A stretch of 64,000 bases of DNA from Alphaproteobacteria bacterium (GTDB lineage Bacteria > Pseudomonadota > Alphaproteobacteria > Rhizobiales > Rhizobiaceae). Under the pieces are notes generated by a model, which was given only the letters and a program-made list of their open reading frames with translations, ran no database searches and had not been told where the DNA came from. Location: NCBI GenBank assembly GCA_024742485.1, contig JANSYK010000002.1, positions 1,612,001 to 1,676,000 of the forward strand, written 5' to 3'. Each line of letters starts with the position of its first letter. Positions within the stretch are counted from its first letter, which is position 1. The position numbers and the translations under genes are program-made. Below, in pieces: positions 29,049 through 56,383 of this stretch.

Positions 29049-29368
29049 TTTTTCAAATGGAAAAATTTGGGCTGGATATCCACAGGTCCATATTGAAGAC
29101 TTGGTAGGGTCATGCCTCTGTTGGTTGTAAATTCCCGTTCAAATTCAAAACTATAAAATGCACGCGAAACGAGTAATGTCGTCTCTCGAATGTGTCGCGC
29201 CAAGTATTCGTCAATTCTCTATTTTTTCATATCGAAAAACGACGATTTTCCACTTTGACAGAACCGGAATCTGCTGCCCTAAACTCCGCCATTGGTGTTT
29301 GTTCTGTGTTTCCCAGCGGTGTGTGTGAGCGCTGTCGGGAGCCTGTCAGCAGTCCGGGAGCAGTGTGC
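29049..29368. other. intergenic region before the autotransporter
   Basis: 320 bases. Just after the TetR stop, ATTTTTC and GAAAAAT form an AT-only 7-bp hairpin (29048-29066) without a following T-run. TATAAAAT at 29152-29159 is a good -10 candidate but lacks a matching -35. A GTG at 29192 opens the autotransporter frame, but the residues encoded there do not look like a signal peptide, so I treat this part as leader. Confidence 0.45.
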
Positions 29369-32300
29369 ATGGGGAAGGTTTCGCGGCAACCGCGTGGCGT
29401 GATGTGGAAGGCTGGTTCCTGCCGCAGAATGATCGACTGGCGTCGATGGGGGCAGGCCGGATCCATCTGGGCTCTCATGGCCACGTGTCCGGTGTTTTTC
29501 TTCAGCCCGGCAACTCCTGCCGGGGCTGCCTGTACCAATACGGCGCCGGCCAGCAATGAAATTGTGAATTGCTTCTTCCTGACCGACCCGGTGACCGGCG
29601 ATGGCATTGATCTCTCAACACCAATCATCGCGCCGGGCTCCACCAATGTCACGGTCAATATTGATGACACCATTCCGCGCACCGATGTGGACAATGACGG
29701 CGTCATCTCCGGCGGCACGTTGAATGTGCCCGGTGCACCGGCCATCAGCCTCGGTGGCGGCTCGACCATTAATCTCAAGGACGCGGCCATTGCCGATTTT
29801 GATTTCAACGCCATCGAACTCGCGCTGGCCGAAGCGCTGCAGCTGGATTTCGATGAGGTCAACTCACAGGGCGATTTCGATGCCCTGTTCGACCGCCTGG
29901 CGGCCATCAGCCCACCGCTTGCAACGCCGTCCGATCCAACCGTGAGTTTTGGCGGCACCGGTGGCATTTTCAACGCCATGGAAGGGCTTTTTCTTTCGGC
30001 AGGGGCCGCAGGCGTTTCCGTGGGTAACAACAGCGCGCTGACGATCGATTTTGCTGACAGCGCGTTTTTGATGCTCACGGCAAATGCACCGGCCATCCGT
30101 ATCGGCGATGCCTCCGCCCTGGACGTCATGCTGACCGATTTTACGACGCTCTTTACACTGTTTGACGGATCACCCGGCATCGAGTCCGGCAACACGGGTG
30201 CGGCCGTTTCGGTTCAACTTGACGAATCAAGTATCCTCACAGCCGGCGACGATTCACCCGGAATCATTGCGCCGGGCGCCTCGTCGGTTTTCAACCTGGA
30301 AGTGACCGCCACAAATCTTGAAGGACCGGCCCTTGTCACCCATGGCGATAATTCGGCTGGCGTCATTGCCAATCGGACCAATAGCGGTTCGACAGCCACG
30401 ATCGACATTGTCGATGCAGTGACCACTGAATTCGGGCCCGGTTTCCAGACGGCTGGCAAGAAGTCGCCGCTCTTCTTTCTCGATCTTGGCAACATGTCCA
30501 GCAGCAGTTTTTCGGCTGCCAATTCGACCTTCCAGACCCGCGGTGACGAATCGCCGGTTATCCATTTGAAAAATGGCGACGAAGGTGACGCCCTGGCGTT
30601 CTTTGACGGAGTGACAGCAAGCTCGGTTGGCAAGGATTCCACCGTGATCAGTGTCAGCAGCGCGGAAAACAACGCTAACCAGAATTTTGTTGCGACGTCA
30701 CTCACCGTCATGGCCGGGCAGGACGGCTCCGCCGGCATTTTTACGCAAAGCGCAAACAATTCCGGTGTGATGACGACATTCCTGTCTGAAACGACGGTAA
30801 CCACGAAAGGCAAGGATGCACCCGCATACTTCTCCGTGGATGCGGGCGCGCAAAAGGGGACAAACGGCGTTGACACCGTGACGATCCTGGACAGCCAGTT
30901 CAACACGATGGGGGACAACAGCCCCGGTATCCGCGTTGCCCAGTTGAACAACAGCTCGACATCCACCCTGACACTCGACACGGTGACGGTTGAAACGGAA
31001 GGCGACATGTCGCCGGGCATTGAGGTTGTCGGTGTTGGCAGCAATGACTCCGCCAATTCCATCGCCGCCACCGGTCTCGACATTACCACCAGGGGCAAAG
31101 GATCCAATGCACTGGTGTTCAATGCCGCGGCGCTGGATGATACAGTTACCAGCGCATCGGTGAAGTCCTCCAAGATCCGAACCGAGGGAGACAACTCGGT
31201 CGGCCTGCGCACCCATCTCGGCGCCGAGGACAACTCGACCTACGTGTTTCTGCTGGAGAGCCTTGAAGCGACCACCACCGGCGATGACGCCAATGGAATC
31301 GAGATCCTCAGCGGCGTGACGCCAGGCGATGCCACCGCAGGCCGGTCTGGCAGTGAAGTCCGGACGACGACATCCAACGTCACCGGCGCCCGTTCGAACG
31401 CGCTGGTCATTGGTGCCGATGTAATCGCAACCAATCCATCGGGTGCCGGCGATGCGCCGACCGATGGCACCGCCGTTGTGAACTTTGACAGTTTTGACGG
31501 ATTTGTGGCGACCGGCATTCGTGGGCGGTCGATCCAGAACAACGGCACCATTCTCGGCGGGTCGACCGGGTTGGTTCTCACGCCGGGACTCGGACTGGTC
31601 GGCAATATCGCCAACAACGGATTGATTCAGGGAACGGCCGGCACAGCCATCACCTATGATGTAACCGCCGACACGGCCGACATATTCGAATTGCAGCCCA
31701 TGGGCACCGTCACGGGCACGGTCAATGCCGGGCTCGGCAGCGACACCTTCATTCTCGGCGGCGAGGGAATCCAGACCTTCGACCAGACACTGATCGGCAC
31801 GCAATATAACGGCTTTGATATTTTCGAGAAGGAAGACGGCTCCACATGGACGCTGTCCAACCTGTCCATGTTCCCGCTCTGGGAAGTGATCGAGGGAACA
31901 TTGGTGGTTCAAAACGAGCTGATCGATCCGATCGCGATCGGTTTTACCGTCCACAATGGCGCGACACTCAGGCTGAGCAATGCGGTGCCCGCATCGGCCG
32001 ATGTGGCGCGGGAAAACCGGGTGGAACTGCAGCCCGGTGGCATCATTTTCGGGGATGTCGATGCCGGCAATGGAAGCGATACATTTGTGCTGGGCGGCCC
32101 TGGCACCGGTGCCTTTGACCACGCCCTGATCGGCACCCAGTTCCATGATTTCGAGAATTTCCTGAAGGAAGATGAGTCGATCTGGACACTGTTCGGCACA
32201 GACAGCTCCAGGCCTTTCCTGCCCGGCACCATTACGGGAGGCACTTTGGTGGTCAACACCAACCTGTCTGGCTTTACCCTGGTCAATGAGGCCGGTGGTC

Positions 32301-33730
32301 GCCTGGAAGGCACAGGCGGCGTTCTGGATCTGACGAATGGCGGCACATTCGCCCCCGGAAACTCCATCGGGACATTTGCCGTCGCCGGGGATTTGACCCT
32401 TCTGTCCACCGGCATCTTGGAAGTCGAGATCGCAGCCGACGGCACATCCGATCTGGTCACCGTCGAAGGCGACACGACCCTCGCAGGCACTGTTGCCGTC
32501 AATGCCATCAATTATCCGACCAATTATCCGCTGGCGCAGGATTATGTGGTCATCAGAACGCCCAACGAAATTGCCGGCAATTTCGATACCATCACCGACA
32601 ATCTGCCCGATGTGGATGCAACCGTCACCATCAATCAGCCCACCGGCCCGGATGACGACATTCCCAACCAGGATGGAACGGTGGTGATCGGCTATGAGCG
32701 TGGCAGCGAGCAATCGGACAAATCCATCCTGCCCAATGCGGTGCAGGCGGGCGGCCATTCCGGCCGGTTGTTTGCCGGTACGCTTCTTGGCCAGGCATCA
32801 TCAACGCCAACGCCTGCCGGCAATGAAGCCAGTTTCGCTTTTGCCGCCGCATCCGACACCGGTCGGCGACGGCGGGGTTGGGCTGCTCTGATGGGCAGCG
32901 CCGCTGATATGGACAGCACCGGTGGTGTCACAGGATATGATGCCGACACCAGCGGAATTGCCGCTGGCACGCAATTCGGCTTTGACACGAACGGCACCGC
33001 TGCCATCGATGCCGGTCTTGGTTTTGGCTACAGCGCTACCAATGTGACCAACAATCCGTCCTCGGCTGACATCGACACATGGTCACTCGGCGCCTATGGG
33101 CGCTTTCACAAGGGGCCGCTGAAACTTGCCGGAGCCATGAGCTACGGCTTTCAGGACTACACGATCAATCGGGTGATTCCGCTCTTCGGAGCCACTCCAA
33201 TGAACGCAAGCGGCAAGACCGATGGCGGTGTGTTCGCCCTGTCCGCCGTGGCCTATTATGATATCGCTCCACGGCTCGGATTGATGCAGGCGCACGGCCT
33301 CAGCCTGTCGCCGCTGATCCGCCTGGATTACGTCAATGTGCATAGGGACGGGTATACGGAAACCGGCGCGGGTATTCTCAATCAAGCCGTTGGCAGCGAC
33401 ACTTGGGACCGCACCTGGTTCGGTGTCGGCGTGAAGCTCGTCAAGACCATTCGCACACAGTCCGGGGCCACCATCCGGCCGGAACTGGAACTGCGGTATG
33501 ACCATGCATTCGGCGATGCGCAGTCGGTGACCAATTCGGTGATCCCGGTGGCCGCCGGCGCGAGCTTTACCACGGCCGGCGTGGCCGAGGGCCGCGATGC
33601 CTTCTCATTGGGCGCCGGAGTGTCGTTCAGGATTTCGAAGAATGTGTCCGGTCGGCTGCGGTACGATGGAACCTTCTCCGGCAGCAGCAGTGTACACCGC
33701 GCCGGCGCGAAGATTGGGTTCAGATTCTAG
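29369..33730 (+). CDS. autotransporter with a repeat-rich passenger
   Basis: ATG 29369 is preceded by GGGAG at eight-base spacing and gives 1453 aa. An extended signal peptide ends near FFFSPATPAGAA. The passenger is a parallel beta-helix built from about ten degenerate repeats with the core GD(D/N/M/E)SPGI. Further on, two copies of a roughly 40-residue block (SDTFILGGEGIQTFDQTLIGTQ and SDTFVLGGPGTGAFDHALIGTQ) end in WTL. A PEP-like AFAPGNSIGTF autochaperone-type segment precedes the C-terminal 280-residue beta-barrel (RRRGWAALMGSAADMDST to the final GAKIGFRF, ending in Phe). It should be secreted through the outer membrane and displayed as an adhesin or biofilm factor. No protease triad is visible. 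Confidence 0.9.
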   Translation: MGKVSRQPRGVMWKAGSCRRMIDWRRWGQAGSIWALMATCPVFFFSPATPAGAACTNTAPASNEIVNCFFLTDPVTGDGIDLSTPIIAPGSTNVTVNIDDTIPRTDVDNDGVISGGTLNVPGAPAISLGGGSTINLKDAAIADFDFNAIELALAEALQLDFDEVNSQGDFDALFDRLAAISPPLATPSDPTVSFGGTGGIFNAMEGLFLSAGAAGVSVGNNSALTIDFADSAFLMLTANAPAIRIGDASALDVMLTDFTTLFTLFDGSPGIESGNTGAAVSVQLDESSILTAGDDSPGIIAPGASSVFNLEVTATNLEGPALVTHGDNSAGVIANRTNSGSTATIDIVDAVTTEFGPGFQTAGKKSPLFFLDLGNMSSSSFSAANSTFQTRGDESPVIHLKNGDEGDALAFFDGVTASSVGKDSTVISVSSAENNANQNFVATSLTVMAGQDGSAGIFTQSANNSGVMTTFLSETTVTTKGKDAPAYFSVDAGAQKGTNGVDTVTILDSQFNTMGDNSPGIRVAQLNNSSTSTLTLDTVTVETEGDMSPGIEVVGVGSNDSANSIAATGLDITTRGKGSNALVFNAAALDDTVTSASVKSSKIRTEGDNSVGLRTHLGAEDNSTYVFLLESLEATTTGDDANGIEILSGVTPGDATAGRSGSEVRTTTSNVTGARSNALVIGADVIATNPSGAGDAPTDGTAVVNFDSFDGFVATGIRGRSIQNNGTILGGSTGLVLTPGLGLVGNIANNGLIQGTAGTAITYDVTADTADIFELQPMGTVTGTVNAGLGSDTFILGGEGIQTFDQTLIGTQYNGFDIFEKEDGSTWTLSNLSMFPLWEVIEGTLVVQNELIDPIAIGFTVHNGATLRLSNAVPASADVARENRVELQPGGIIFGDVDAGNGSDTFVLGGPGTGAFDHALIGTQFHDFENFLKEDESIWTLFGTDSSRPFLPGTITGGTLVVNTNLSGFTLVNEAGGRLEGTGGVLDLTNGGTFAPGNSIGTFAVAGDLTLLSTGILEVEIAADGTSDLVTVEGDTTLAGTVAVNAINYPTNYPLAQDYVVIRTPNEIAGNFDTITDNLPDVDATVTINQPTGPDDDIPNQDGTVVIGYERGSEQSDKSILPNAVQAGGHSGRLFAGTLLGQASSTPTPAGNEASFAFAAASDTGRRRRGWAALMGSAADMDSTGGVTGYDADTSGIAAGTQFGFDTNGTAAIDAGLGFGYSATNVTNNPSSADIDTWSLGAYGRFHKGPLKLAGAMSYGFQDYTINRVIPLFGATPMNASGKTDGGVFALSAVAYYDIAPRLGLMQAHGLSLSPLIRLDYVNVHRDGYTETGAGILNQAVGSDTWDRTWFGVGVKLVKTIRTQSGATIRPELELRYDHAFGDAQSVTNSVIPVAAGASFTTAGVAEGRDAFSLGAGVSFRISKNVSGRLRYDGTFSGSSSVHRAGAKIGFRF

Positions 33731-34270: not shown

Positions 34271-34408
34271 ATGTTCAAGTTATCGGCGGCGCCGACCGCC
34301 GCAGAAAAGCCTGAAACGGTACCACACATGGTGTGCAACAGACCTTGCGCATGGTGCGGATGTGCGGGGGCGACAATGCAATGGATGGTAGCCATGAAAG
34401 GAACCACA

Positions 34409-35398
34409 ATGCGCCTGCTGCTCGTAACCTTGTCCGCCCTGGCGGGCTTCACTTATCCCGCTTTGGCCGACACGCTCATGGTTGGCAACAAATTTGAGGG
34501 CACGGTGAGCTTCATTGATCTGGGCACGGGCAAGGAAGTGTTCCGCCCGCAATCAGGCGGGTCGCCCCATGAGCTGGCACTATCCCCGGATGGGAAAACG
34601 GTTGTTGTCGTCTCCTATCTGGAAGACGGATATATTGGCAGGGAACTGAATGTCTTTGATGTCGCTTCCGCCGCGCTGACAAAAACCATATCCATTGAGC
34701 CACATCTGGCACCACACGGCATAGGTTGGATCGGGCAGACCGACAGTGTCATCACCACGACGGAAGAAACCCGCGATGTCACCCGTGTCGATATTGAGAG
34801 CGGTTCTGTAACCGGTGCGGTATCAACGGATCAGATCGGTTCGCATTTGCTGGCGCTGTCACCGGACAGCAGGACCGGATATGTGACGAGCAGGGGATCC
34901 GACACACTGAGCGTGATCGATGTCGATACCATGACCTTGAAAAAGACGATTGCTGCCGGTACCGGGCCGGAAGCTGTTGATGTCAGCCCGGACGGCGCGA
35001 CGCTTTGGGTCGGCAACAATCAATCCGAGGATATTTATGTCTTCGATACGGCCACAATGGACATATCGGCGCGGATCGAGGTCGGCTTTCTGCCGATCCG
35101 GGTCCGGTTTCATCCCGATGGCAAGGCAGTGGCGGTTGCGGATCTGCGCAATGACAGGATCGTCGTCTATGATTCCCAATCCCACGAGCCGGTCGCGGAA
35201 ATCGACCTCAATGCAATTGGCGCGCAAACGCCGGCCTCGCTTCTGTTCTCACCCGATGGCGCATCGCTGTTTGTTGGTGCGCAAAGAAGTGGCAATGTTG
35301 TCGAGATCGAATCCGAGGGCTGGTCGGTCAAGCGCGTGATCGAAGCGGGACATGGTGCTGACGGACTGGCCTATAGTACCATACAAATGAACCTCTGA
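34409..35398 (+). CDS. exported YncE-like beta-propeller protein
   Basis: ATG 34409 has AAAGG seven bases upstream and starts a signal peptide (MRLLLVTLSALAGFTYPALA); 329 aa in all. The mature part has seven or so YVTN/NHL-type blades with LSPDG/FHPDG turns (ELALSPDGKTVVVVSYL, LLALSPDSRTGYVTSRGSDTLSVIDVDT, AVDVSPDGATLWVGNNQSEDIYVFDTAT). Such periplasmic propellers accompany quinoprotein, metal or surface systems. There is no such partner next to it, so its role is open. Confidence 0.85.
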   Translation: MRLLLVTLSALAGFTYPALADTLMVGNKFEGTVSFIDLGTGKEVFRPQSGGSPHELALSPDGKTVVVVSYLEDGYIGRELNVFDVASAALTKTISIEPHLAPHGIGWIGQTDSVITTTEETRDVTRVDIESGSVTGAVSTDQIGSHLLALSPDSRTGYVTSRGSDTLSVIDVDTMTLKKTIAAGTGPEAVDVSPDGATLWVGNNQSEDIYVFDTATMDISARIEVGFLPIRVRFHPDGKAVAVADLRNDRIVVYDSQSHEPVAEIDLNAIGAQTPASLLFSPDGASLFVGAQRSGNVVEIESEGWSVKRVIEAGHGADGLAYSTIQMNL

Positions 35399-36125: not shown

Positions 36126-36395
36126 TCAGTTGACCCGGAACTCCCCGTCAATCTTGTGCCACTCACCGGGTTTGATGAGGTGCTGATGGGTATAGGCGAC
36201 CGAATGGATCGGCCCATCGAGTTTTTCCTGCCAGAAATCAAGAAATCCGAACAGTTTGGGAAAATCCGGCGCCAGATCGTAATCCTGCCAAAGATAGGTC
36301 TGCAGCATCCCTTTGAAATCCGGCATGCGATAGTAAATCTGTGCAGTGGTCAGGCCATGACCAGCCAGCATCAACTCGATGTCTTTCTTTCTCAT
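36126..36395 (-). CDS. usg: Usg-family protein
   Basis: 89 aa from ATG 36395 (MRKKDIELMLAGHGLTTAQIYYRMPD). The sequence matches the Usg-like family, first noticed beside trp genes in alphaproteobacteria: LQTYLWQDYDLAPDFPKLFGFLDFWQEKLDG and VAYTHQHLIKPGEW are its conserved core. The function of the family is unknown. Here it stands alone, without trpF, and divergent from the CHAT operon; the CIRCE-like operator between them could act on either gene. Confidence 0.85.
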   Translation of the reverse strand: MRKKDIELMLAGHGLTTAQIYYRMPDFKGMLQTYLWQDYDLAPDFPKLFGFLDFWQEKLDGPIHSVAYTHQHLIKPGEWHKIDGEFRVN

Positions 36396-36488
36396 GCGAT
36401 CCTCATTTTCCATTGCGGTTGGAATGATGCCAGATTCGAGCGGAATCTCAAAATGATATCAAGTTGAATCCCAAGTGATAACAATATG

Positions 36489-36515
36489 TTAGCACTCGAA
36501 ATTGGCGAGTGCTGA
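36489..36515. promoter_or_regulatory. CIRCE element (HrcA operator) upstream of the CHAT operon
   Basis: TTAGCACTC-N9-GAGTGCTGA matches the CIRCE consensus TTAGCACTC-N9-GAGTGCTAA at 17 of 18 positions with exact spacing. A -10-like TATGTT (36485-36490) overlaps its left end and TTGAAT lies at 36464-36469, so the element would sit at the transcription start, its usual place in HrcA-controlled promoters. CIRCE normally controls groESL or dnaK; here the first downstream gene (115 bp away) is a CHAT-like protein. On the other side usg starts 94 bp away. Confidence 0.82.
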
Positions 36516-36629
36516 TTGCTATTGGCGCCACTTGTCGTCGGACCGCGACAGGACCGTCGCGGATCAGGGTGGAGGTTGAACCACCGGTCACCGCGCAGTA
36601 TCGTGATTATTCGGTGTCAGGAGATAATC

Positions 36630-38090
36630 ATGGCGCAGCAGCTTCGCATTCAACACAATCTCGTCACGCTGCGATGCGGTTGGCATCCCGGATCGGCCGG
36701 CGCGCAGGTGTCGGTCCGGCTGATGGATGGCCGCGAACATGTTGATGAACTGATTGTACCGGCAACTGAGTTCGGATTTGAGGAGGACCTTTCTCCGCGG
36801 GTCTATCGCGGGGCCAGTCTGAGACTGCCTGACATCCTGGACAAATTGCTGCATGAAGCGATGGCTCGGATCGGTCCGGATGTGCCTTTGTGGATCCACA
36901 TTGCCCGCGATGCCGGAACCCTGGCCATCCTGCCATGGGAATTGCTGCTGCGCCAACGTCCGATTCTGGATGGGATCTCGATCCTTCGAATTCCCAATTT
37001 TCTAACCGATCCATTCTCGCTGAGCGAACGCACCACCGTCGCGGTTTGTATATCGTCTCCAAATGCCAAAATGCCGTTCCCGGCGGCTGAATATGCCCGC
37101 AGGCTTGTCGAAGCATTCTCGTTTCTGGCAACGCGCCCGGTATCGCTGCACCTCTTTGCCGATCTCGATTCCCACTACGATCTTTCCGGCCTGACCGGCA
37201 GTGGTCATTGCAATGTCGTCGTCCACGATCCGTCCGGCTATGCGTTTGACGAGAGGGTCACAATTGACCGTGAACTGGAGGCGAGGGATCACCGGCTTCA
37301 AAATCCTTGGATGTTGTGGATGGCGGAAACATTGCGCGGTAACCCCGTCGATGCTGTTCACTTCATCTGCCCCGGCTATTTCAAGGGCGATCGCGGTTCG
37401 CTGGCGCTCGCTGAAACGCCTGCGAAAAACTATGATTCCCATTGGTCGCGCTTTGTCGGTTCGGAAGAGATCCATGCGCTGCTCGACGCGCTGGGCGCTC
37501 ATACGGTCGGATTCAGCGCACCCTTTGTCGACGTGTGGGCAATGGGCCTTCGGCTGCTTGCTTTCAACCTGTCCTGGAGGCGGCCTGGTCCGATCATCGT
37601 TCATGACGGCGGAACGGAAACATTTGACGATGTACCGCGCAACTACGCCTTTCTCTTTCGTTGGTTGCCGGATTATGAACCGGTTCCAGCACTGCGAACG
37701 GAATTCTACTGCCACCCGACCCTGGCGGTCAGTGGCGATCGGCAGGACCTGCCGTTCGAGGATCGCCTCAGCGTCTCGGGAGATATGCTGGCACTGGCGC
37801 AGGAACCGGCTGAGCATCAACAGGACATGCTTGTCGATCCGCCGGGCAGCTTTGAGCGCGTAAAGGTGCAAGGCGAGACATCCTGGGCAGAGCTTGCAAC
37901 CCGTCATTTCGATCTTCATGAAGCCAGCCTGAGCGCGATCGAACAGGATACCGCGGCGAGCCCGTCCGAGAAGGAGGGCAGTCTGGAAGCCATCCGTTTC
38001 ATGCGGCACGCACTGGAGGCGTCAACCGCGCCGGGCGATTCCGCAGCCATGCCATCTGTCGCCATTGACGATGCGGAGAGTGAGGCATGA
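36630..38090 (+). CDS. CHAT-like protein that appears catalytically dead
   Basis: 486 aa from ATG 36630 with SD GGAG at seven-base spacing. The N-terminal 130 residues carry the domain usual before CHAT (LWIHIARDAGTLAILPWELLLRQRPIL), and the rest follows the CHAT plan: DAVHFICPGYFKGDRGSLAL at 241-260 and HTVGFSAPFVDVWAMGLRLLAF at 291-312. The places of the catalytic His and Cys seem to hold Pro248 and Ser296, so it should be a pseudo-protease, perhaps a sensor or scaffold. Its stop overlaps the next start by four bases. The C-terminus (residues 430-486) is helical and acidic. Family assignment rests on motif layout only. Confidence 0.65.
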   Translation: MAQQLRIQHNLVTLRCGWHPGSAGAQVSVRLMDGREHVDELIVPATEFGFEEDLSPRVYRGASLRLPDILDKLLHEAMARIGPDVPLWIHIARDAGTLAILPWELLLRQRPILDGISILRIPNFLTDPFSLSERTTVAVCISSPNAKMPFPAAEYARRLVEAFSFLATRPVSLHLFADLDSHYDLSGLTGSGHCNVVVHDPSGYAFDERVTIDRELEARDHRLQNPWMLWMAETLRGNPVDAVHFICPGYFKGDRGSLALAETPAKNYDSHWSRFVGSEEIHALLDALGAHTVGFSAPFVDVWAMGLRLLAFNLSWRRPGPIIVHDGGTETFDDVPRNYAFLFRWLPDYEPVPALRTEFYCHPTLAVSGDRQDLPFEDRLSVSGDMLALAQEPAEHQQDMLVDPPGSFERVKVQGETSWAELATRHFDLHEASLSAIEQDTAASPSEKEGSLEAIRFMRHALEASTAPGDSAAMPSVAIDDAESEA

Positions 38091-39451
38091 GCCATACCCT
38101 GATTGCCGTCCGCGGAGTTGCAAATATCGAAGATGACAGCCCGATTGTCGCACGGTTCGAAATTCCGGCTCCGCCCGGCGTGCCGAATGGAGGAATGTCG
38201 GCTGATCTGAACTGTGACGTTGCCGATGGACCGTTTCTTGGACTGACAGCTGGCGACCCCATCGGCGGCGATCAGATCGTTCAGCAGTCCGGAGCGGAGC
38301 TCTGGGGTCGGCTGACGGTGCACCCTGCCTTTGTCAACGCCATTGCAACCTCTGTAGCAGCGGCGGCCGAGGACCGACCGAGCCCGATCCGCGTAGAGAT
38401 CGATGAATCGGCGCCGCACGCCGAAATGCTGCCGTGGGAGACGCTGTATCATCCTCAGGAAGGATTTCTCGGGCTGGAAAACCGGTTGTCCATCGTTCGC
38501 ACCGCGCGCTGTGCAAAGGATCCGAAAACCTGGTCGCTGCGCGGTCCCCTGCGCATTGTCGCCGTTCTCGGTGCTGCAGGCGTTTCTGCGCTGGACGAAT
38601 GGCGATCCCTGCGCGAATCGCTGGCCGAATTGCAATGCGACTACCACCTGGTGGTGCTCACCTGCGAGCAATCTGTCCATGACGAGGTGTCACAGGCCGA
38701 TCCAGACCGGATCAGCGCCGACTGGATTCCGAGCGACGGGCAGGCTCTTACGAACAGCCTGAAGGATTACAAAGCCCATCTGATCCATCTCTTCGCCCAT
38801 GGTTCGTCGGATCATGAGGGTTATCTGGAGGTTACGGACCCGATCGTCCATGAGGCTGGAGGGGATCCGATGTATCTGGCGGCGGATGATCTGGCGATCA
38901 AGCTCCGCGGCACCTGGCTGATCACACTCAATGCCTGTCAGACCGGCGGCGCAACAAATGCCACCAATTCGCTGGCCTATGAATTGGTAGCACAGGGCGT
39001 TGCGGCAGCCATTGGCATGCGCGAACGGGTCACACCGGAAACCGCCAACGCCTTCACATTGACGCTCTACCGGGAGGTCTTTCGGCATCTGAACGACCAA
39101 CTGCACCAGGGTGAAATTGCGCTCGACTGGGCCGAGGCAATGGTCAAGGCGCGGGCTGCCCTGTGCAGTGCAACCACACCCGGTCCCGTGAAATCCACCG
39201 CCAACCGTGCCAAGATCTGGACACTGCCGGCGCTTTATATGCAAGATCGACCGGCAACCGCGCCTGTGCTCGCGCAGGATTCGCAGCTATCGGATGAAAG
39301 GGTTCTGCAATTGCGCAGGACAATTGCCGACCTGCGACATCATCTGGACGCCATAGACCAGATGGGGTTTCCGGAGCATATTCTGGCCAATATGCGCACC
39401 ATGGTTGAGGCCGAGATCGCGGCACGAGAAGCCGAATTTTCGGCCGGATGA
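38087..39451 (+). CDS. CHAT-domain cysteine protease
   Basis: 454 aa. An N-terminal domain ends in the CHAT-associated motif MLPWETLYHPQEGFLG (114-129). The CHAT fold follows with the expected catalytic dyad: H238 in AHLIHLFAHGSSDHEGYL and C284 in WLITLNACQTGG, then ATNSLAYELVAQGVAAAIGM, which closes the active site. The last 55 residues are helical. CHAT proteases are bacterial caspase relatives (clan CD) that cut a partner protein when activated, as in type III CRISPR Csx29 and in gasdermin systems. Second gene of a coupled trio; its substrate may be the membrane protein or the nuclease encoded next door. Confidence 0.87.
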   Translation: MSHTLIAVRGVANIEDDSPIVARFEIPAPPGVPNGGMSADLNCDVADGPFLGLTAGDPIGGDQIVQQSGAELWGRLTVHPAFVNAIATSVAAAAEDRPSPIRVEIDESAPHAEMLPWETLYHPQEGFLGLENRLSIVRTARCAKDPKTWSLRGPLRIVAVLGAAGVSALDEWRSLRESLAELQCDYHLVVLTCEQSVHDEVSQADPDRISADWIPSDGQALTNSLKDYKAHLIHLFAHGSSDHEGYLEVTDPIVHEAGGDPMYLAADDLAIKLRGTWLITLNACQTGGATNATNSLAYELVAQGVAAAIGMRERVTPETANAFTLTLYREVFRHLNDQLHQGEIALDWAEAMVKARAALCSATTPGPVKSTANRAKIWTLPALYMQDRPATAPVLAQDSQLSDERVLQLRRTIADLRHHLDAIDQMGFPEHILANMRTMVEAEIAAREAEFSAG

Positions 39452-40845
39452 ACTGGCCGGCCAAACTCCAGACCAATGGCTGGACCGGCAGCACGGCGGC
39501 CGCCGAGCCCGTGGGTGACGAAACGCGCAGGTGGCTGTTTCGCGACCGGATCGACCGGCCGGAGCAGCATCTTCTGCCTGGCGATCCACCCGACGAACGC
39601 AATTGGGCCGATGCGCGGGTGGGCTGGGGCCTGGTGATGCGCGACGATCCGGATGTCCCGGCAGAGACCAAGGCCCGCGCAGGCGATGCACCACTGATCG
39701 TCCAGCAGCTTGTCGAAGCCCGCGATAACGCACCCGTGCTGCGCTGGGACCCGGCATTGCCATTGGGCACCTTGCGCTGCTATCGCCGGGACGGCACCGA
39801 TGAGTTGCTGCAGCTTGCCAATCTGCACCACGGCACCGGATCCGGCGCCATACCCAAATACCTGCTGTTGCTCGGATCGCCGGACCGGCTTCCCTGGAGC
39901 CTGCAATATGAGTTGCAGACATCCCAATATGTGGGCCGCCTGGCGCTGTCTGGAAGCGGTCTGGACCACTATGTTACAGCCCTGATGAATGGGTGGTCCG
40001 GTACAGTGACAGAAGCGCTCAAAACGGTGATCTGGGCGGTTGACCATGGCAGTGATGACATCACTGAACTGATGCGTGACGCCATCGCGAAACCCCTTCA
40101 CCTGCGCTTTTCAGCGGATGGTGATCTGAACAGTGGCTGCCGGTTTATCGACGGGCGGGCCGAGACCGCCACGGCCGGAAAACTTCTGGAGGCGTTGGAA
40201 GCGGCACACCCATCACTGATCGTCAGCACCAGCCACGGGATGACGGGGCCGCTGGCGGATCCCGATGCCATGTCGGCGTCCCTGGGCATCCCCGTGGATC
40301 AGGCTGAAGGGCTTCTCCCAATGGATGATCTGCTCGGCCCGGCCATGCCTGGCGGTGCGATCTGGTACGCCCATGCCTGCTGTTCGGCAGGCGGTGACGC
40401 CCAGACCGCCTATTCCGGCCTGCTTCCGGAAGGTGGCGATGTGGATCGACTGCTGAAGGCGGTCGCCGGGCTCGGCGCACGCACCGCACCCATGCCGGAC
40501 CGATTGCTTGGAACGGCCAACCCGATCCGCGCCTTCATCGGTCATGTCGAGCCGACATTCGACTGGAGCGTGAAATCGCCCCTTGCCGGCACACCCATGA
40601 CGAAGGCCATTGAAGCTGCACTCTATGAAGGCCTCTTTGTGGGCAATCCGGTGGGAATGGCGTTGAAATCCTGCCGTGATGTCGCCAGCAGCCTGGGATC
40701 GACGGTTGCCGAGGCCCGCCGGCGCTATGGGCGCCGGGACACCAGCCTGAATGGCGAGGCGCTTGCGTGCCGACTGATGTGGTCGGACTGGCGCAGTCTT
40801 GTCCTTCTGGGTGATCCGACCGCCAGGATCCCGCTGCCGGGGTGA
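39448..40845 (+). CDS. caspase/gingipain-like (clan CD) cysteine protease
   Basis: 465 aa. It shares an LPWSLQYEL motif (148-156) with CHAT-type proteins and a likely catalytic pair, H263 in SLIVSTSHGMTGPLAD and C311 or C312 in GGAIWYAHACCSAGGD, which fits the His-Gly and Ala-Cys spacing of clan CD peptidases such as caspases and gingipains. The N-terminal 130 residues are of unknown type; the C-terminal 100 are helical and end with a conserved LLGDPTARIPLPG, as seen after gingipain-type domains. Its start overlaps the CHAT gene by four bases. Specificity cannot be read from sequence. Confidence 0.72.
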   Translation: MNWPAKLQTNGWTGSTAAAEPVGDETRRWLFRDRIDRPEQHLLPGDPPDERNWADARVGWGLVMRDDPDVPAETKARAGDAPLIVQQLVEARDNAPVLRWDPALPLGTLRCYRRDGTDELLQLANLHHGTGSGAIPKYLLLLGSPDRLPWSLQYELQTSQYVGRLALSGSGLDHYVTALMNGWSGTVTEALKTVIWAVDHGSDDITELMRDAIAKPLHLRFSADGDLNSGCRFIDGRAETATAGKLLEALEAAHPSLIVSTSHGMTGPLADPDAMSASLGIPVDQAEGLLPMDDLLGPAMPGGAIWYAHACCSAGGDAQTAYSGLLPEGGDVDRLLKAVAGLGARTAPMPDRLLGTANPIRAFIGHVEPTFDWSVKSPLAGTPMTKAIEAALYEGLFVGNPVGMALKSCRDVASSLGSTVAEARRRYGRRDTSLNGEALACRLMWSDWRSLVLLGDPTARIPLPG

Positions 40846-40905
40846 GGTCGCTTGCAGCTTGGGGTGAGTGATGCCCGACGCCGGGACGGCAAGGGGAGGT
40901 GGCTG

Positions 40906-43176
40906 CTACTGAACCTTGGCTTTTGCCCGCTCCAGCAGCGTTCCGACTCCGGCATCGGTGGTAAATCCCCAAAGGAAAACCTTGATATAATCCTGATAGG
41001 TGCCGACAAAACTGTCGCCAAAAATGAACAGGGCCACCACCGTCAGGCCCACCCAGGCAACGCCCGTCTGCAGCATTTCCCGCCGGGCGATCTGGAGAGC
41101 TGTTTCAGCCTTCTCCAGCTTCAGCCGCGCAATCTGAGCCGCACGGTAATCAACCGAATGAGCGCGGCGCAGCGCTGGTTCGCGGGTGTCGACCCAATTG
41201 GCGTGCAGTGATCCGACATACATCCCGGCTACATCGCCATCCTGTAGAAGATCAGCGCCGCCTGCGCCGGCGGTCCGAGGGCCAGTTCGCAGCGACTCCG
41301 TTAATTCGATCCGTGGCTTGACCGCTTCCAAAGCCGCTTTGCGATACTCTCCCCTGGCCAGATGGTCTTCTGTCTCATCGGCAACCGGTTCTTGCACGGA
41401 GCGAACAGCTTGCGTCATGGCCGCAGTGACGCCGGATACAACCTGCTCCAATTCGGCATTCCCACTGTCCGGCTGCTCGGTCCAGTTTTCCGGTTTCATG
41501 GCGGCGAGTTGCTCGCGCGCGGTCTCCAGATCGGCCGCGGCATCGGAACTCAGTTTCGTGTCGAGAATGCGCGTCACGCGTGCGGCAGTTGCATCGATGT
41601 CTCGGCGCAAGCTGTAGAGCAACCGGTTGGCTGCATTCAGCGCGACATGACTCGCCTTGAGGATCGTCTTCATACTCTCATTGGGGTCGTCGCCGGCCTG
41701 TGTTTCAACCGGTCCAACGGCTGTTTGCAAGGCGGACCCAATTGGCGTGAAATCCGAATTCGTCTCGTCGGGAAGCGGCTTGTCCAGGCTGTGCTCAAGC
41801 GCCGCCATGGCATCGCCGACCGCAACGCGCCATGCCTCTATGGACGTGACCATGGACCGGTGCAAACCGATCTGGACGGTCTCAAGCTGCTGTGTGGCGT
41901 CATCATATTGACGATCGCGGATTTGTTGCCGAATGACTTCCAGATCTGTCAGGCTGGACTCCAGGGCATCCCGAACATCCAGTGGGACCGTCCAGTTTGC
42001 ACGGGCAAGATCCTGCAGCGTTTCCAGCGCGGTTTCTGTTGCGGCGGCATCCGCGGCGGATTTGTCCAATGCGGCTTTCAGCGCTGTTTCCCATCCCGTC
42101 ACCAGTGTCTTGAGCGCATCATCGTCTACGCCGGCATGATCGCTGATTCGGTTTTCGATGGCTGATGCGATTTCATTCAGACTGTTCTGAAGTGCTTTAT
42201 CGCCAACACCTTCGCCGCTCTCGATAACCCGCTGCAGCAGAGTTTTCAGCTTCAATTCACGCCGCCCGCGCTGCAGCTCCTTCTCCAGATTGGTCCGCAA
42301 CGCGAATCCTGCGATCAACCCGATCACCACGACAATACCGAGAGCGAATAGCCCGTCATGTCGCACGACCTTGTAGTCCACATTCATGCGCTCGATTTCC
42401 GGTGACGAAATCCTCAGCGTTCCGGTTGTTTCGCCCTTCGGAAACGGAACAGAGACCTTAACGGCCAGTTTGTGAAGTGTATCGCGGCCGCTGGGTGTTT
42501 GGACTTCCAAGGTTCCTGAAACGCGCTTGTCGCCATGCAGGGCGTTGCGTGCTTGAACGATGCGCAAATCTGTCGGCCCGATGCTGCCCTTGGTCTCCAG
42601 GTTCAGCATTGTCGCCGCCGTTGTGCAATTCATTCCGAAAACACAGGTCTGCTCGACGAACAAGGCGTGCGGGGTCTCGAATTCGACTTTCGGATAGGTC
42701 ACCGTGACGTCGAAAGTCTCTGATATCTCTGTCGGCGGGTCGTTGGCTTCGGCACCGGGAAGACTGGCTGATGCGATGAGTGTCACAACATAACTGCCGT
42801 AGACGGGTCCGGTGATCGCGGACGTATCAAGAACCGGCTCTATGAAGTACAGGCCGTTTTCATCAGCCTTCACACTTTCGGCGATCGTGATGCCACCATT
42901 GGGGATCGACAAGGTCACACCGTCATGGCTGACCTCGGCCACGGCAAGTCCGATCGTTTCCGTTTTCTTGGCATTTGCTCCGGGGACCAGTCTGATACGG
43001 GTTTTGGCCTCCTTTTCGCCGGCCGTGAAAAGGTAGGGATCGTCACGCACGGTGAGCAATGTGTTGTCATCGGCTGCCAGAACAGCACCAGGCGATCCGT
43101 AAAAACCAAGGAGAACAAGAACGAGAAGAATATATCTCAAGGTGGCGTCCTCAGAACTTAAGGGGTGGTTCAACAT
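40906..43176 (-). CDS. large membrane protein with helical cytoplasmic region, candidate effector or substrate of the CHAT trio
   Basis: 756 aa if ATG 43176 is used. A TTG at 43140 with GAGG eight bases upstream would give a tighter signal peptide (RYILLVLVLLGFYG ... AVLAA) and may be the true start. Residues 35-272 are an exported beta-rich, Ig-like part with one Cys pair (C178, C184). A transmembrane helix lies at about 275-294. The region 297-700 is almost all helical (coiled-coil-like, likely cytoplasmic). Near the C-terminus comes a second membrane helix (about 703-721), then a short hydrophobic stretch (IKVFLWGFTTDAGVG). No family is recognised. It is convergent with the CHAT trio. A membrane protein beside caspase-like proteases invites comparison with protease-activated pore formers, but this is inference. 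Confidence 0.72.
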   Translation of the reverse strand: MLNHPLSSEDATLRYILLVLVLLGFYGSPGAVLAADDNTLLTVRDDPYLFTAGEKEAKTRIRLVPGANAKKTETIGLAVAEVSHDGVTLSIPNGGITIAESVKADENGLYFIEPVLDTSAITGPVYGSYVVTLIASASLPGAEANDPPTEISETFDVTVTYPKVEFETPHALFVEQTCVFGMNCTTAATMLNLETKGSIGPTDLRIVQARNALHGDKRVSGTLEVQTPSGRDTLHKLAVKVSVPFPKGETTGTLRISSPEIERMNVDYKVVRHDGLFALGIVVVIGLIAGFALRTNLEKELQRGRRELKLKTLLQRVIESGEGVGDKALQNSLNEIASAIENRISDHAGVDDDALKTLVTGWETALKAALDKSAADAAATETALETLQDLARANWTVPLDVRDALESSLTDLEVIRQQIRDRQYDDATQQLETVQIGLHRSMVTSIEAWRVAVGDAMAALEHSLDKPLPDETNSDFTPIGSALQTAVGPVETQAGDDPNESMKTILKASHVALNAANRLLYSLRRDIDATAARVTRILDTKLSSDAAADLETAREQLAAMKPENWTEQPDSGNAELEQVVSGVTAAMTQAVRSVQEPVADETEDHLARGEYRKAALEAVKPRIELTESLRTGPRTAGAGGADLLQDGDVAGMYVGSLHANWVDTREPALRRAHSVDYRAAQIARLKLEKAETALQIARREMLQTGVAWVGLTVVALFIFGDSFVGTYQDYIKVFLWGFTTDAGVGTLLERAKAKVQ

Positions 43177-43474
43177 ACACTCTGGTTGCTTGAATCACCA
43201 GTCACAGGGAGGCGCCGTGGTCGGTCACCCGTTACGTCGGAATGAACCACCGGCATGTCCATCGATTGTTCCGGGCACCGGTAAATAGGGGCAGAAAGGG
43301 CTTGGGGCAGTGAAAGTCCGGAATGTGTCAGTCAGGCAGAATGAGCCCGGACAACAAATATAGTTTGCGGACTGGATCAATTTTATTGAATTGTTTTGCA
43401 AAAATTTCATCGTCCGGAGAATTGTCTGTGTCGTGGATGTGTTAAAATGCACAATAGACTTGGAGGGCCCCGTG
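43177..43474. promoter_or_regulatory. divergent promoter region between the membrane protein and the protease-nuclease
   Basis: 298 bases. For the rightward gene an extended -10, TGTGTTAAAAT (43438-43448), lies 26 bases before the start codon with a weak -35 TTGTCT at 43422-43427; SD GGAGGG is at 43462-43467. A long AT-rich tract at 43358-43410 could hold the leftward promoter. No CIRCE copy is present here, so this pair is not visibly under the same control as the CHAT trio. Confidence 0.4.
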
Positions 43475-45679
43475 ATGAACCGCTTGAACGAAATCACCGA
43501 AAAACGCCTGGAGCTCGGCAAGAAGGCTGCAGCCCGCTGGGCCGAAAGAAGCGCCGAACGGGAGGCCTCAAGGAGATCAACAGACAGGGGAGACATCCGC
43601 GCCGGCAATTCTCCGGAAGCGCTGACTGATTTCCTGGCGCGCAATCATCTGCGTGCCGGTCGCGTGCGCACCCTGGGTGTCGTTCGTGCATCGTTTGCCG
43701 AGCGGATTATCGGGACCAACGATCTGCGAGACGACCCGGTCACGCCGGAAGAAATGCTGGCGGGTCAGCCGGTGGGAAGAGTTGTCGAGAACCTGGACAC
43801 GCCCAACCGGCTATCAGGATTTGGTACCGGATTCATGATTGCTCCGGGTCTGCTGATGACCAATCACCATGTCTTGGAAACCGCGGGGGATGCCCGGGGC
43901 TGCGGCATCCAATTCGGATATGAAACGCTGGGTCCAGGCGCGACCGAGGGAGAAACATTCGAACTGGATGCCGACACGTTCTTCACGGCGGACGAGGCGC
44001 TCGACTATGCTGTTGTCGCCGTCCGGTCAAGAAGCCTGTCGCAAACCGATCTGGCCAAATGGGGGCATCACAAGCTGGTGGATCAGACCGGCAAGGTCCT
44101 GAAGGGACATGCTGTCACGATCGTCCAGCATCCCGGCGGTGGAACGAAGAAATACGCCCGGGTCAACAATGAGATCGTCGATATCCTGGAAGACTATCTG
44201 CATTATCTGGCCGATACGGAGCCCGGATCATCGGGATCTCCTGCATTCAATACGGAGTTTGAAGTGGTTGCGCTGCACCACAGCGGTGTTCCTGCAATGG
44301 ATGGGGATGTCGTTTTGAACCGCGACAACAAACCCTGGCGCCGTCATCAGGGCGATGATGCCATTCAATGGATTGCCAATGAGGGTGTGCGCATATCGCG
44401 CATCCTGACCCATCTGGCCAATGCCGCATTCGACACACCGGAAAAAGCCGCATTGCGGGATTCAATTACCGGCACCACCACCGACATACTGGATATCGAA
44501 TTGCTGGATCCGCAGGATTGCGTTCCCATTGAGCCCGCAGGGCAGGAGGCAGCCGGCCTGGGCACCATCGTCTCATCGTCGGGTGGTTTGCAAACAACCG
44601 CCGCCAGGGGTGTAGGCGCCGGCCAACCGGTCATCAATGTTGCCGGTGACGCTCATGTCTATTTTGCCCCGGTCCACCAGCAGGCATCTGCCGGTCTGCA
44701 TGAATCGAAGCCGATGCTGGCGACAGAAAGCACACCGGCGGTGCTGGAAAGGAAACTGAAGCGCGATGCCGACTATGCCCGCCGCCGCGGCTATGACGAA
44801 GATTTTCTGACGGGATATTCCGTCCCCCTGCCGACGGTGTCCGGCGATCGGATGGATGAGCTGATCAGGGACCGGTATGGCAATCCGCTCATTCTGGATT
44901 ATCACCATTTTTCGCTGGTGATGAACCAGGACTGGATGTTGCAGATGTGGTCGGCGGTTAATGTCGATTACAGTCCGGAGGTTCGGTATGATCTGACACG
45001 GGCTGAACTGGGTCGGGACGAGTGGATTGAAGATCCGAGGATTCCGGGGTCGCTCCAAATCGATGATCCGGAGCTCTACAAACCGGCCAGGAAATTTGAC
45101 CGCGGCCATGTGGTGCGGCGCGATGACAATGCCTGGGGACGGACACAGGAAGAAATGGAATATGCCAATTCGGACACGTTCCACTGGACCAATTGCACAC
45201 CGCAGCATGAGCACTTCAATCGCGCGATCGGTCCTTATAAGGGGATTTGGGGCAAGCTCGAACAACACATTACCCGGCAATCCAGATCGGTGGGCAACCG
45301 CCTGACCATTTTCTCCGGCCCCGTGCTTGATGAGAACCGGGCCATTCCCCATGATTTCGGTGGCGGGACCTTCAATGTGCCCTACGACTACTGGAAAGTG
45401 ATCATCGTTGCTGAGCGAAGCCGGCGGCGACGCACGCCGAAACTCAAGTCCTATGGATTTCTGCTGGAACAGAAATCAACAATCGACCGCAGAGGGCTGG
45501 AAAGACTGCGGCCCGAAAAACGGTTCGAGATTGGAGAATTCGAAGAACAGCATCGCTCTCTCGCCCAGATCACCGATCTGACCGGGGTCGTGTTCCCTGA
45601 CATCGTCCACGAGGCGGATGCAAAACGCGGCGATGACGGGCACATCATTCTCGAAGGTCTTGAGAAGCTGAAACTCTGA
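43475..45679 (+). CDS. trypsin-like protease fused to a DNA/RNA non-specific (NUC) endonuclease
   Basis: 734 aa from ATG 43475 with SD GGAGGG. After a charged helical start, residues about 115-310 are a trypsin-like domain with triad H132 (MTNHHVL), D178 (ALDYAVVAV) and S253 (PGSSGSPAF). Residues about 330-420 are a linker with an AAR-rich loop. Residues about 465-725 are a NUC endonuclease: FDRGHVVRRDD with D542-R543-G544-H545 and the metal-binding Asn stretch NCTPQHEHFNR (573-583). No signal peptide is seen, so it likely acts in the cytoplasm, where a nuclease would be toxic unless held inactive. The protease may release the nuclease by self-cleavage, or cut other targets. Confidence 0.88.
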   Translation: MNRLNEITEKRLELGKKAAARWAERSAEREASRRSTDRGDIRAGNSPEALTDFLARNHLRAGRVRTLGVVRASFAERIIGTNDLRDDPVTPEEMLAGQPVGRVVENLDTPNRLSGFGTGFMIAPGLLMTNHHVLETAGDARGCGIQFGYETLGPGATEGETFELDADTFFTADEALDYAVVAVRSRSLSQTDLAKWGHHKLVDQTGKVLKGHAVTIVQHPGGGTKKYARVNNEIVDILEDYLHYLADTEPGSSGSPAFNTEFEVVALHHSGVPAMDGDVVLNRDNKPWRRHQGDDAIQWIANEGVRISRILTHLANAAFDTPEKAALRDSITGTTTDILDIELLDPQDCVPIEPAGQEAAGLGTIVSSSGGLQTTAARGVGAGQPVINVAGDAHVYFAPVHQQASAGLHESKPMLATESTPAVLERKLKRDADYARRRGYDEDFLTGYSVPLPTVSGDRMDELIRDRYGNPLILDYHHFSLVMNQDWMLQMWSAVNVDYSPEVRYDLTRAELGRDEWIEDPRIPGSLQIDDPELYKPARKFDRGHVVRRDDNAWGRTQEEMEYANSDTFHWTNCTPQHEHFNRAIGPYKGIWGKLEQHITRQSRSVGNRLTIFSGPVLDENRAIPHDFGGGTFNVPYDYWKVIIVAERSRRRRTPKLKSYGFLLEQKSTIDRRGLERLRPEKRFEIGEFEEQHRSLAQITDLTGVVFPDIVHEADAKRGDDGHIILEGLEKLKL

Positions 45680-46001
45680 ACCGCAAAAAACAGGCGGTTG
45701 TCACCTCACGCTTGGGCATCAGGTCTCTGCCGTAAATCATATGGATGTGCGTCTTGGGAGCTGACCATCCGGGCTGCATTGAATGCGCGGCTGTGACGCC
45801 CGCATGGACTTGCTCACGTTTCATCTCGCAGATCCAAAACCGTTCTGGTTTCGTCGGAACCGGATGCGTCCCCGCAGCTTTACACTTCTTTACGTCCCCG
45901 AAAACGGCCTGAAACAAGAGGACCCCACATGATGAATTATGGGGCGCCGGAGATGTTCAAAACGGTCCAGCGCACCGACACGACAACACGGGAGCCAGGA
46001 A
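45680..46001. other. intergenic region before the first Spy/CpxP-like gene
   Basis: 322 bases. Six-bp arms AACCGC (45679-45684) and GCGGTT (45694-45699) just after the nuclease stop form a hairpin without a T-run. Further on the CpxR-like box at 45879-45893 is the clearest signal; its product start is at 46002. No gene was found. Confidence 0.45.
45879..45893 (-). promoter_or_regulatory. CpxR-box-like direct repeat, copy 1
   Basis: TTTAC-N5-TTTAC on the plus strand equals GTAAA-N5-GTAAA on the minus strand, the consensus bound by CpxR-type OmpR regulators. It lies about 109 bp before the start of the small exported protein at 46002. Confidence 0.65.
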
Positions 46002-46397
46002 ATGAAACCAAACCTTTCACAACCCTTCGTGCGAGCCTTGTCTGCCGGAGGGATATTTCTCCTGTCGCTGACGGTGATGACAACGCTGGCCGAAGCCCAG
46101 ATGGCACCGGACAGAACCGAGATCAAACAGGTTGCCGGGCAATTGCACCTGAACACCGCTCAACAACAGGCATTTGTGCGCATTGTTGATGAGTTTCAGA
46201 TGTCGGTCGAAACAATTCTGGAACGCTACGGAGTTGATCCCTTCGAAAGCAGACCACCGCCGACGGTCCGTTTCGCACTTCGATCCGATGTGCAGGAAAG
46301 CGTGAGCCTTATGGATAAGCAATTGTCGGTCATCCTGACGGCCGATCAATTGCGCGAATTCAGGCAGATCCGCCGGCAGCGGATACGAATGCGCTAG
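46002..46397 (+). CDS. small exported helical protein, Spy/CpxP-like
   Basis: 131 aa from ATG 46002 (GGAG at seven-base spacing). Signal peptide: GGIFLLSLTVMTTLAEA. The mature part is a short helical bundle with LNTAQQQAFVRIVDEFQMSVETILE and the ending LTADQLREFRQIRRQRI, which recalls the LTxxQ repeats of CpxP/Spy-type periplasmic proteins. It probably senses or buffers envelope stress. It lies just before the two-component operon and carries the same type of box upstream as that operon. Confidence 0.7.
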   Translation: MKPNLSQPFVRALSAGGIFLLSLTVMTTLAEAQMAPDRTEIKQVAGQLHLNTAQQQAFVRIVDEFQMSVETILERYGVDPFESRPPPTVRFALRSDVQESVSLMDKQLSVILTADQLREFRQIRRQRIRMR

Positions 46398-52046: not shown

Positions 52047-52243
52047 CCCGGATAGACGTCCCCCTCTGTCATCTGCAGGGAAACGGGCGGCATCTTTGCC
52101 GTCGGTCAACATGGGGGAAGATCGAAAACCGAATAGTCACAAGCAGTCGAGAGCCCGCGCCGGACCATCGAGCGGCGCGCAACCATACAAACAGACATTG
52201 ATCAGAATCCGGTCGACGAATGTGTCTTCCGGTCGGGGTATTC

Positions 52244-56372: not shown

Positions 56373-56383
56373 GAGACGCTGCC

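Follow-up and report, generated by a model that had tools for sequence, protein, structure and literature searches.

A protease trio with a pseudo-CHAT member in a Rhizobiaceae genome as part of a putative four-gene conflict module

Why would a bacterium keep three protease-like genes coupled when one of them appears to have lost its active site? The question is raised by positions 36,630 to 40,845 of a 64-kb stretch (hereafter the window) out of a 1.9-Mb contig (JANSYK010000002.1, assembly GCA_024742485.1) of an alphaproteobacterium from the Rhizobiaceae, here labeled G000. A preliminary description, made from the sequence of the window, had proposed a pseudo-protease coupled to two active caspase-like proteases. 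Our analysis suggests that the trio supplies the proteases of a widespread, as yet unnamed conflict module, probably serving defense. In this reading a pseudo-CHAT/CHAT pair would trigger an executioner protease that would in turn switch on an effector, and we regard the case for and against it as evenly balanced. The three genes are:

36630-38090, + strand: gene 1 (g1), putative pseudo-CHAT protein of 486 amino acids (open reading frame; hhalign to g2; residue counts; model and fold search); PWE motif at 36933-36941, P248 at the His place (37371-37373), P298 at the Cys place (37521-37523)
38087-39451, + strand: gene 2 (g2), predicted CHAT cysteine protease of 454 amino acids (Pfam CHAT; dyad counts); His238 at 38798-38800, Cys284 at 38936-38938
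39448-40845, + strand: gene 3 (g3), predicted clan CD (C25-like) protease of 465 amino acids (dyad; Pfam C25 in distant relatives; model); His263 at 40234-40236, Cys311 at 40378-40380

All three open reading frames are intact, and the four-base ATGA overlaps first described at 38087 and 39448 are confirmed. The encoded proteins are 66% (g1), 74% (g2) and 71% (g3) identical to those of a sister species, G003. The three products had also been said to share an LPW(E/S) motif of CHAT-associated proteins; the letters are present (LPWE, LPWE and LPWS at residues 101, 115 and 148), but the LPWS of g3 is unlike the CHAT PWE motif, and three distant g3 relatives carry PYSF, PFEF and PYEF at its place.

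To what extent does the trio recur elsewhere? Using tblastn of g3 against 72,556 plasmid records, we found eight, and on plasmids of Gemmobacter and Bradyrhizobium the g1-CHAT-g3 set is preceded by a gene for a 432- or 444-residue alpha/beta hydrolase (DUF900, just above the cut-off). A scan of the genome_contigs collection (one genome per species, 84,980 species) with the g3 alignment as query gave 56 loci from Pseudomonadota, Actinomycetota, Chloroflexota, Acidobacteriota and Gemmatimonadota. We surveyed 60 loci, comprising the window, 6 plasmid loci and 53 genome loci; left out were L001-L008, which come from the window and G003 themselves, and L068-L070, partial loci with scores below the limit. 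The order hydrolase-g1-g2-g3 was present in 43 of the 60 (42 plus L062, with frame-broken g1 and g2; split genes of other kinds occur in L043, L066 and L058). The remainder consisted of hydrolase-g3 only (n = 7), g3-hydrolase-g3 (n = 2), g3 alone (n = 3), g1-g2-g3 without hydrolase (n = 4; the window, L015, L056 and L065) and g2-g3 at a contig edge (n = 1; L036), the sole case of g2 without g1. Counting L062, g1-g2-g3 order was found in 47 of the 60 loci; g1 occurred in 47, with a called g2 beside it in 46, the g2 of L062 being frame-broken. Spacing was tight, with a gap of zero or less between g2 and g3 in 33 of 47 pairs and between g1 and g2 in 22 of 46, where start codons were picked by rule and some starts and gaps in other loci are approximate. 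Because the trio is kept in G003 and the same order recurs in 47 of the 60 loci found with g3 as bait, it is more than a chance arrangement, and the three genes co-occur far outside the genus, as a neighborhood survey had been proposed to establish.

We next consider the individual proteins, for which residue counts exclude the fragments in L062 (g1; its g2 failed too), L036 (g2), L043 and L066 (g3) and L058 (hydrolase), as well as the distant loci L012-L014; alignment sets A5-A7 consist of the window and loci L015 onward, with L047 left out of A7. Profile-profile alignment (hhalign, cleaned alignments) joined g1 to g2 with Prob 97.1 and E 6.1e-11, while g1 matches of the iterated g2 profile were not used as evidence because that profile may include other CHAT proteins. 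At the His place of g1, 13 of 46 homologues have His and 11 have Pro; at the Cys place a single homologue has Cys and 30 have Pro, and none of the 46 combines both residues, which makes the missing site a property of the family and not an accident of G000. W103, E104 and W227 are invariant (46/46). An alternative nucleophile was considered and rejected, since conservation among the 46 homologues does not reach 85% at any Ser, Thr, Cys or Asp. We thus see g1 as a CHAT paralogue of g2 that looks catalytically dead across the family. The layout originally described as inactive, with Pro and Ser at the His and Cys places, holds with one correction: the Cys place is P298, and Ser296 lies two residues earlier.

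The AlphaFold2 model of g1 (predicted local distance difference test (pLDDT) 83.3) gave SAVED-CHAT 8tl0 as the best Foldseek match among solved structures (E 9.4e-4, the only one under 0.001), followed by weaker matches to MALT1, separase and caspase-11 along with unrelated folds. For g2, Pfam CHAT was matched at 5.8e-16 (59.2 bits against a cut-off of 24) and H238 and C284, the dyad named at the outset, were each found in 46 of 46 homologues; g2 is apparently a CHAT protease with a kept catalytic dyad and is predicted to be active.

The third protein is apparently a clan CD protease near family C25, also with its dyad kept and predicted to be active. Its sequence contains the His-Gly and Ala-Cys dyad; among 55 homologues, H263 is present in 54, C311 in all and C312 in 53. 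The preliminary description had left the nucleophile as C311 or C312. In an alignment that included three distant relatives C311 was kept in 8 of 8 sequences and C312 was not kept, making C311 the likely nucleophile. The window proteins of g1 and g3 matched no Pfam, NCBIfam or PADLOC family at E 0.1, and among family members there were weak matches to Pfam CHAT in 2 of 43 for g1 (best 0.03) and to Pfam C25 in 1 of 52 for g3 (0.034). Two distant g3 relatives scored above the Peptidase_C25 cut-off (L012, 7.9e-10; L013, 9.6e-6), and the model of g3 is confident (pLDDT 93.0). Profile and structure comparison therefore did not refute the placement of g1 and g3 in clan CD, g1 lying nearest to SAVED-CHAT and g3 having relatives above the C25 cut-off. 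Sequence search of g1, g2, g3 and the hydrolase against solved structures gave a best E of 0.011.

Homology to g2, the residue counts and co-occurrence thus bear out the proposal of a pseudo-protease coupled to two proteases with dyads. What the preliminary description missed was the usual fourth gene, together with a 9.5-kb insertion shared with G003 (see below), and the hydrolase reshapes the model. Judging from gene order and conserved residues, the commonest form of the module is a quartet with a predicted Ser-Asp-His alpha/beta hydrolase first. S273 (within GHSxG), D337 and H415 (L009 numbering) are present in 49 of 49 aligned hydrolases, and the fold class suggests that they form the catalytic triad. 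Between P104 and M240, ahead of the nucleophile, lies a less conserved stretch of 135-164 residues, a candidate gating lid that may be likened to the gated nucleases in the available text of PMC12799240. PADLOC searches of 45 hydrolases returned two families with one member each (best 0.0016). A fifth core gene was sought and rejected: the largest cluster of neighbors, which includes CHAT proteins, spans 6 loci and the next one 5.

The hydrolase-g3 pair appears to behave like a cassette that is placed behind different switches. It lies beside two CHAT-nSTAND1 proteins in Nostoc (L012); in Sinorhizobium (L013) it is on the opposite strand to a CHAT protein that matches AAA weakly, and in L024 it follows genes for a histidine-kinase-type ATPase and a protein kinase. 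In L047, a metagenome-assembled genome of Chloroflexota, hydrolase and g3 are fused as one open reading frame (5774-8599) opposite a TPR-CHAT gene. Positions 4588-10455 of L059 encode, one after the other, Hsp70, clostripain (C11), hydrolase and g3, with a different clan CD protease at the initiator position. In L055, 1.2 kb separates hydrolase from g3, and a weak caspase-domain protein lies nearby. The genes behind g3 in L051 encode a further alpha/beta hydrolase (Pfam LCAT in this locus), a caspase carrying VMAP-C and an AAA protein of the MoxR-like kind, and a homologous locus from the phylum sample (G313, 82% DNA identity) has the same gene set after g3; a vWA gene was not looked for at these two loci. 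Where the hydrolase is missing in L056 and L065, a papain-like gene stands directly upstream of g1 (Peptidase_C1, 6.3e-11 in L056; the L065 copy is 93% identical). We also observed a second, divergent g3 upstream in L047 and L045, and in L055 (3116-6366) the weak caspase-domain frame is followed by a 606-residue frame with a C-terminal ribosomal S5 domain, both upstream of hydrolase and g3.

The module is rare and scattered. When 101 genomes were searched with each trio gene, full matches were obtained in G000 and G003 only; within the genus, two of eight genomes searched had the trio, G000 included, and g3 was found in 2 of 398 genomes drawn from the phylum, G000 being one. Copies also occur on plasmids. 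Pairwise divergences of the four proteins were correlated across 39 loci (r 0.80-0.89; none of 999 permutations as high), with mean identities of 42% for g3, 39% for the hydrolase, 28% for g2 and 25% for g1. On the g3 tree, 8 changes of phylum label are required where 4 would be the minimum; many forks are weak, so transfer is suggested but not proven. A viral origin was rejected: despite 19 pattern matches there were no relatives in viral_contigs, and the trio had no PHROG match at 0.01.

How might the parts work together? Because the front of the module (g1 and g2) evolves faster, the back (g3 and hydrolase) evolves slower and the front is exchangeable for STAND or VMAP proteins or other clan CD proteases, we propose a chain from sensor and initiator through executioner to effector. 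As a pseudo-CHAT/CHAT pair, g1 and g2 would resemble separase or cFLIP/caspase-8 and stay off until g1, or some further partner, senses infection or envelope damage. Active g2 would then cleave or release g3, and g3 would turn on the effector by proteolysis; in most of the organisms found this would be the hydrolase, and in the window lineage perhaps a trypsin-NucA protein, where a membrane protein may provide the anchor or sensor. The infected cell would then probably stop growing or die. We infer the defense role, the order of the cascade and every step beyond the active sites. More specifically, and only tentatively, we suggest a three-tier caspase cascade, in which a pseudo-caspase/CHAT heterodimer activates an executioner and the executioner a lipid-attacking pro-hydrolase, with separate co-evolving genes and an interchangeable effector (hydrolase, papain-like protease and perhaps trypsin-NucA), as a prokaryotic counterpart of the logic by which cFLIP/caspase-8 leads to executioners.

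Is the window itself a typical case? A hydrolase hidden upstream of g1 or elsewhere in G000 was searched for and not found, and the same search of G003 gave only a weak 57-residue match. In the midpoint-rooted g3 tree, the window and L015 (the G003 contig, letter-identical over the 10,399 bases compared) join L028, L018 and L049, all quartets, with support of 96/83. Loss of the hydrolase is therefore the simplest reading, and the window lineage appears to have lost or swapped the usual effector, whose absence is apparently derived. The surroundings of the trio comprise:

36414-45938, no strand: insertion of about 9.5 kb, between divergent genes at 36126-36413 (- strand) and 45939-46397 (+ strand)
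40906-43176, - strand: membrane protein of 756 amino acids (hydropathy; no Pfam family above cut-off)
43391-45679, + strand: trypsin-NucA (Endonuclease_NS) fusion of 762 amino acids (Pfam Trypsin_2, 1.2e-18; Endonuclease_NS, 8.2e-35)

The trio, the membrane protein and the trypsin-NucA gene form one insertion. In G001 of the same genus (L102), a gap of 419 bp separates the homologues of the two flanking genes (protein identities 82% and 37%), which adjoin the same response regulator and histidine kinase as in the window, and none of the five insertion genes has a match in that genome. All five are present in G003, split between contigs C40 and C95; the break falls near the end of g3, and the two contigs are presumably adjacent. 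In G005 the right flank was found and the left one was not. The 756-residue protein, a candidate sensor or anchor, has an N-terminal hydrophobic segment, a possibly periplasmic region, a transmembrane segment at about 275-293, a long middle and a C-terminal transmembrane segment; its G003 homologue (58%) is found on the contig that opens with the last part of g3. The trypsin-NucA protein, a candidate effector in this lineage, has a TTG start that is possibly too early and a G003 homologue with 79% identity. That copy (L076, C95 2788-5001) has one in-frame TGA in the match and may be broken or misassembled.

Further from the trio, the window encodes a large autotransporter (29192-33730) followed by a YncE-like beta-propeller protein (34271-35398), for which no clear orthologue to serve as a flank marker was found outside G000. 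A single protein at 22192-24435 combines DinB_2, FGE-sulfatase and histidine-specific methyltransferase domains and is presumably of the EgtB/EgtD or ovothiol-type fusion kind. At 52220-60804 there is a nos-type cluster with an FMN_bind/4Fe-4S protein, a nitrous oxide reductase propeller protein, NosD, an ABC ATPase and permease, and ApbE.

Several observations weigh against a protease cascade feeding an effector. With Foldseek, the g3 model had no solved match under E 0.001; the best was 7x8a_D (E 2.9e-3), which we take, its identity unconfirmed by a look-up that found nothing, to be a Craspase-series entry, and the rest look unrelated. As these fold matches are weak, the basis for placing g3 in clan CD is its dyad together with the C25 scores that its distant relatives reach. 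Profile comparison does not join g3 to g2 (Prob 11.6), the match of g1 to SAVED-CHAT 8tl0 has a low TM-score of 0.24 and the only PADLOC match of g2 is a weak one to SAVED_CHAT (6e-5) over residues 168-371, which correspond to the CHAT region. Since g3 served as bait for all 60 loci, the survey is silent on g1 or g2 without it, and the correlated divergences would also result from shared ancestry. At L030 and L054 the four scanned neighbors of the hydrolase-g3 pair (a weak AMP-binding match, a thiolase, an FAD oxidoreductase and an S15 peptidase) look metabolic or peptidase-like and include no switch. Finally, no hydrolase was found in G000 by a search that matched three of three control genomes (whose own hydrolases were in the query alignment), so the effector of the window is a guess; G083 has a trypsin-NucA gene with no g1, g2, g3 or hydrolase in the 12 kb around it, and the link in the window lineage may therefore be chance.

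Could the module instead carry out regulated proteolysis outside defense, as HetF and separase do, processing cellular proteins during stress or development or to maintain the envelope, and having the hydrolase as its metabolic partner? The window copy does sit among ordinary genes, including a two-component system and, further off, the nos cluster, and around the module any further gene family recurs in 6 loci at most. Weighing against such a role are the very patchy spread (2 of 398 phylum genomes, its own included), the plasmid copies, an insertion present in G000 and G003 and absent from G001, and the coupling of g3 to STAND and VMAP switches, and we consider it unlikely. A self-sufficient toxic trio is less probable still: here g3 or g2 would degrade essential host proteins, with the hydrolase an accessory and neither hydrolase nor nuclease needed. 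The four loci that keep g1-g2-g3 without hydrolase, and the intact window frames with 66-74% conservation between two species, count in its favor, but the hydrolase comes first in 43 of 60 loci with its triad residues in 49 of 49, and the papain-like gene upstream of g1 in L056 and L065 looks as if the slot must be filled.

A different division of labor within the pair would make g1 a substrate-binding decoy or inhibitor that holds g2 off in a dominant-negative manner until it is removed by a phage factor. For related systems, the available text of PMC7159879 gives about 70% of vWA-fused caspases as inactive and proposes that they are dominant-negative regulators or peptide binders. The sequences fit this arrangement and an activating partner equally well, and none of our observations goes against it; we nevertheless find it somewhat doubtful. 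That the window holds a decaying remnant, its hydrolase lost and the rest on the way out, is very improbable: the missing hydrolase, with all three controls matched, would agree with decay, but the copy retains three intact reading frames, four-base overlaps and the dyads of g2 and g3, and a second species has the same five genes.

If the proposed cascade is correct, the module offers a compact four-gene system for in vitro tests of how a pseudo-protease controls an initiator caspase and how an executioner hands over to its effector, with naturally occurring versions whose effector has been lost, fused or replaced. The published pairing of caspases with alpha/beta hydrolases, a genomic correlation in large NTPase systems, would then become a small module with conserved active sites.

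Among known systems, the type III CRISPR proteases SAVED-CHAT and TPR-CHAT (Craspase) likewise use CHAT as a gated initiator, and SAVED-CHAT is the nearest solved fold to g1; they differ in that no SAVED, TPR or Cas Pfam match was found among 18 window proteins, CRISPR arrays not having been searched for. In bacterial gasdermin operons (cited in PMC12799240), too, caspase-like proteases feed an effector, but the effector slot here is usually a hydrolase, and nine window proteins had no gasdermin match in Pfam or PADLOC, where the presence of a gasdermin model was unchecked. The canu system shares the logic of a protease-activated pro-effector: CanA, a caspase, works in complex with CanB and activates a pro-nuclease (PMC12799240, available text). 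Its effector, however, is a nuclease of the metallo-beta-lactamase (MBL) fold, compared with an alpha/beta hydrolase or, in the window, perhaps a NucA nuclease, and CanB is not described as a pseudo-caspase in that text; no MBL match was found among the 18 window proteins scanned. As in System 3, known mostly from alphaproteobacteria (PMC7159879, available text), the protein at 43391-45679 fuses both core domains (trypsin and Endonuclease_NS), and a genus mate belongs to the Rhizobiaceae; unlike System 3, the fusion shares its insertion with a CHAT trio and has no EAD1 or STAND partners among the scanned window proteins.

The closest relatives are the VMAP MoxR-vWA ternary systems. According to the available text of Kaur et al. 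2020 (PMC7159879), every VMAP caspase has an alpha/beta hydrolase as a neighbor, and the caspase is fused to VMAP or vWA or occasionally stands alone beside VMAP. Shared features are the caspase with alpha/beta hydrolase, the many inactive caspases and, in L051 and G313, a g3 near a caspase-VMAP-C protein and a MoxR-like gene. In contrast, no MoxR, vWA or VMAP-C was matched when 18 window proteins, among them the products of all five insertion genes, were scanned with Pfam, none is annotated beside the L009 and L010 quartets, where many neighbors are hypothetical, and the switch here is an unfused pseudo-CHAT and CHAT pair. The caspase and hydrolase pairing was also not found in the window genome, though the quartet occurs in 43 of 60 loci. 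We found no description of the pseudo-CHAT/CHAT/g3/hydrolase quartet in the open-access literature searched; supplementary and source data, which lay outside the search, may list some members. The pairing of caspases with alpha/beta hydrolases and the inactive caspases were already published in 2020 for MoxR-vWA systems, and the quartet is a variant of that theme in which the switch is a separate pair of genes.

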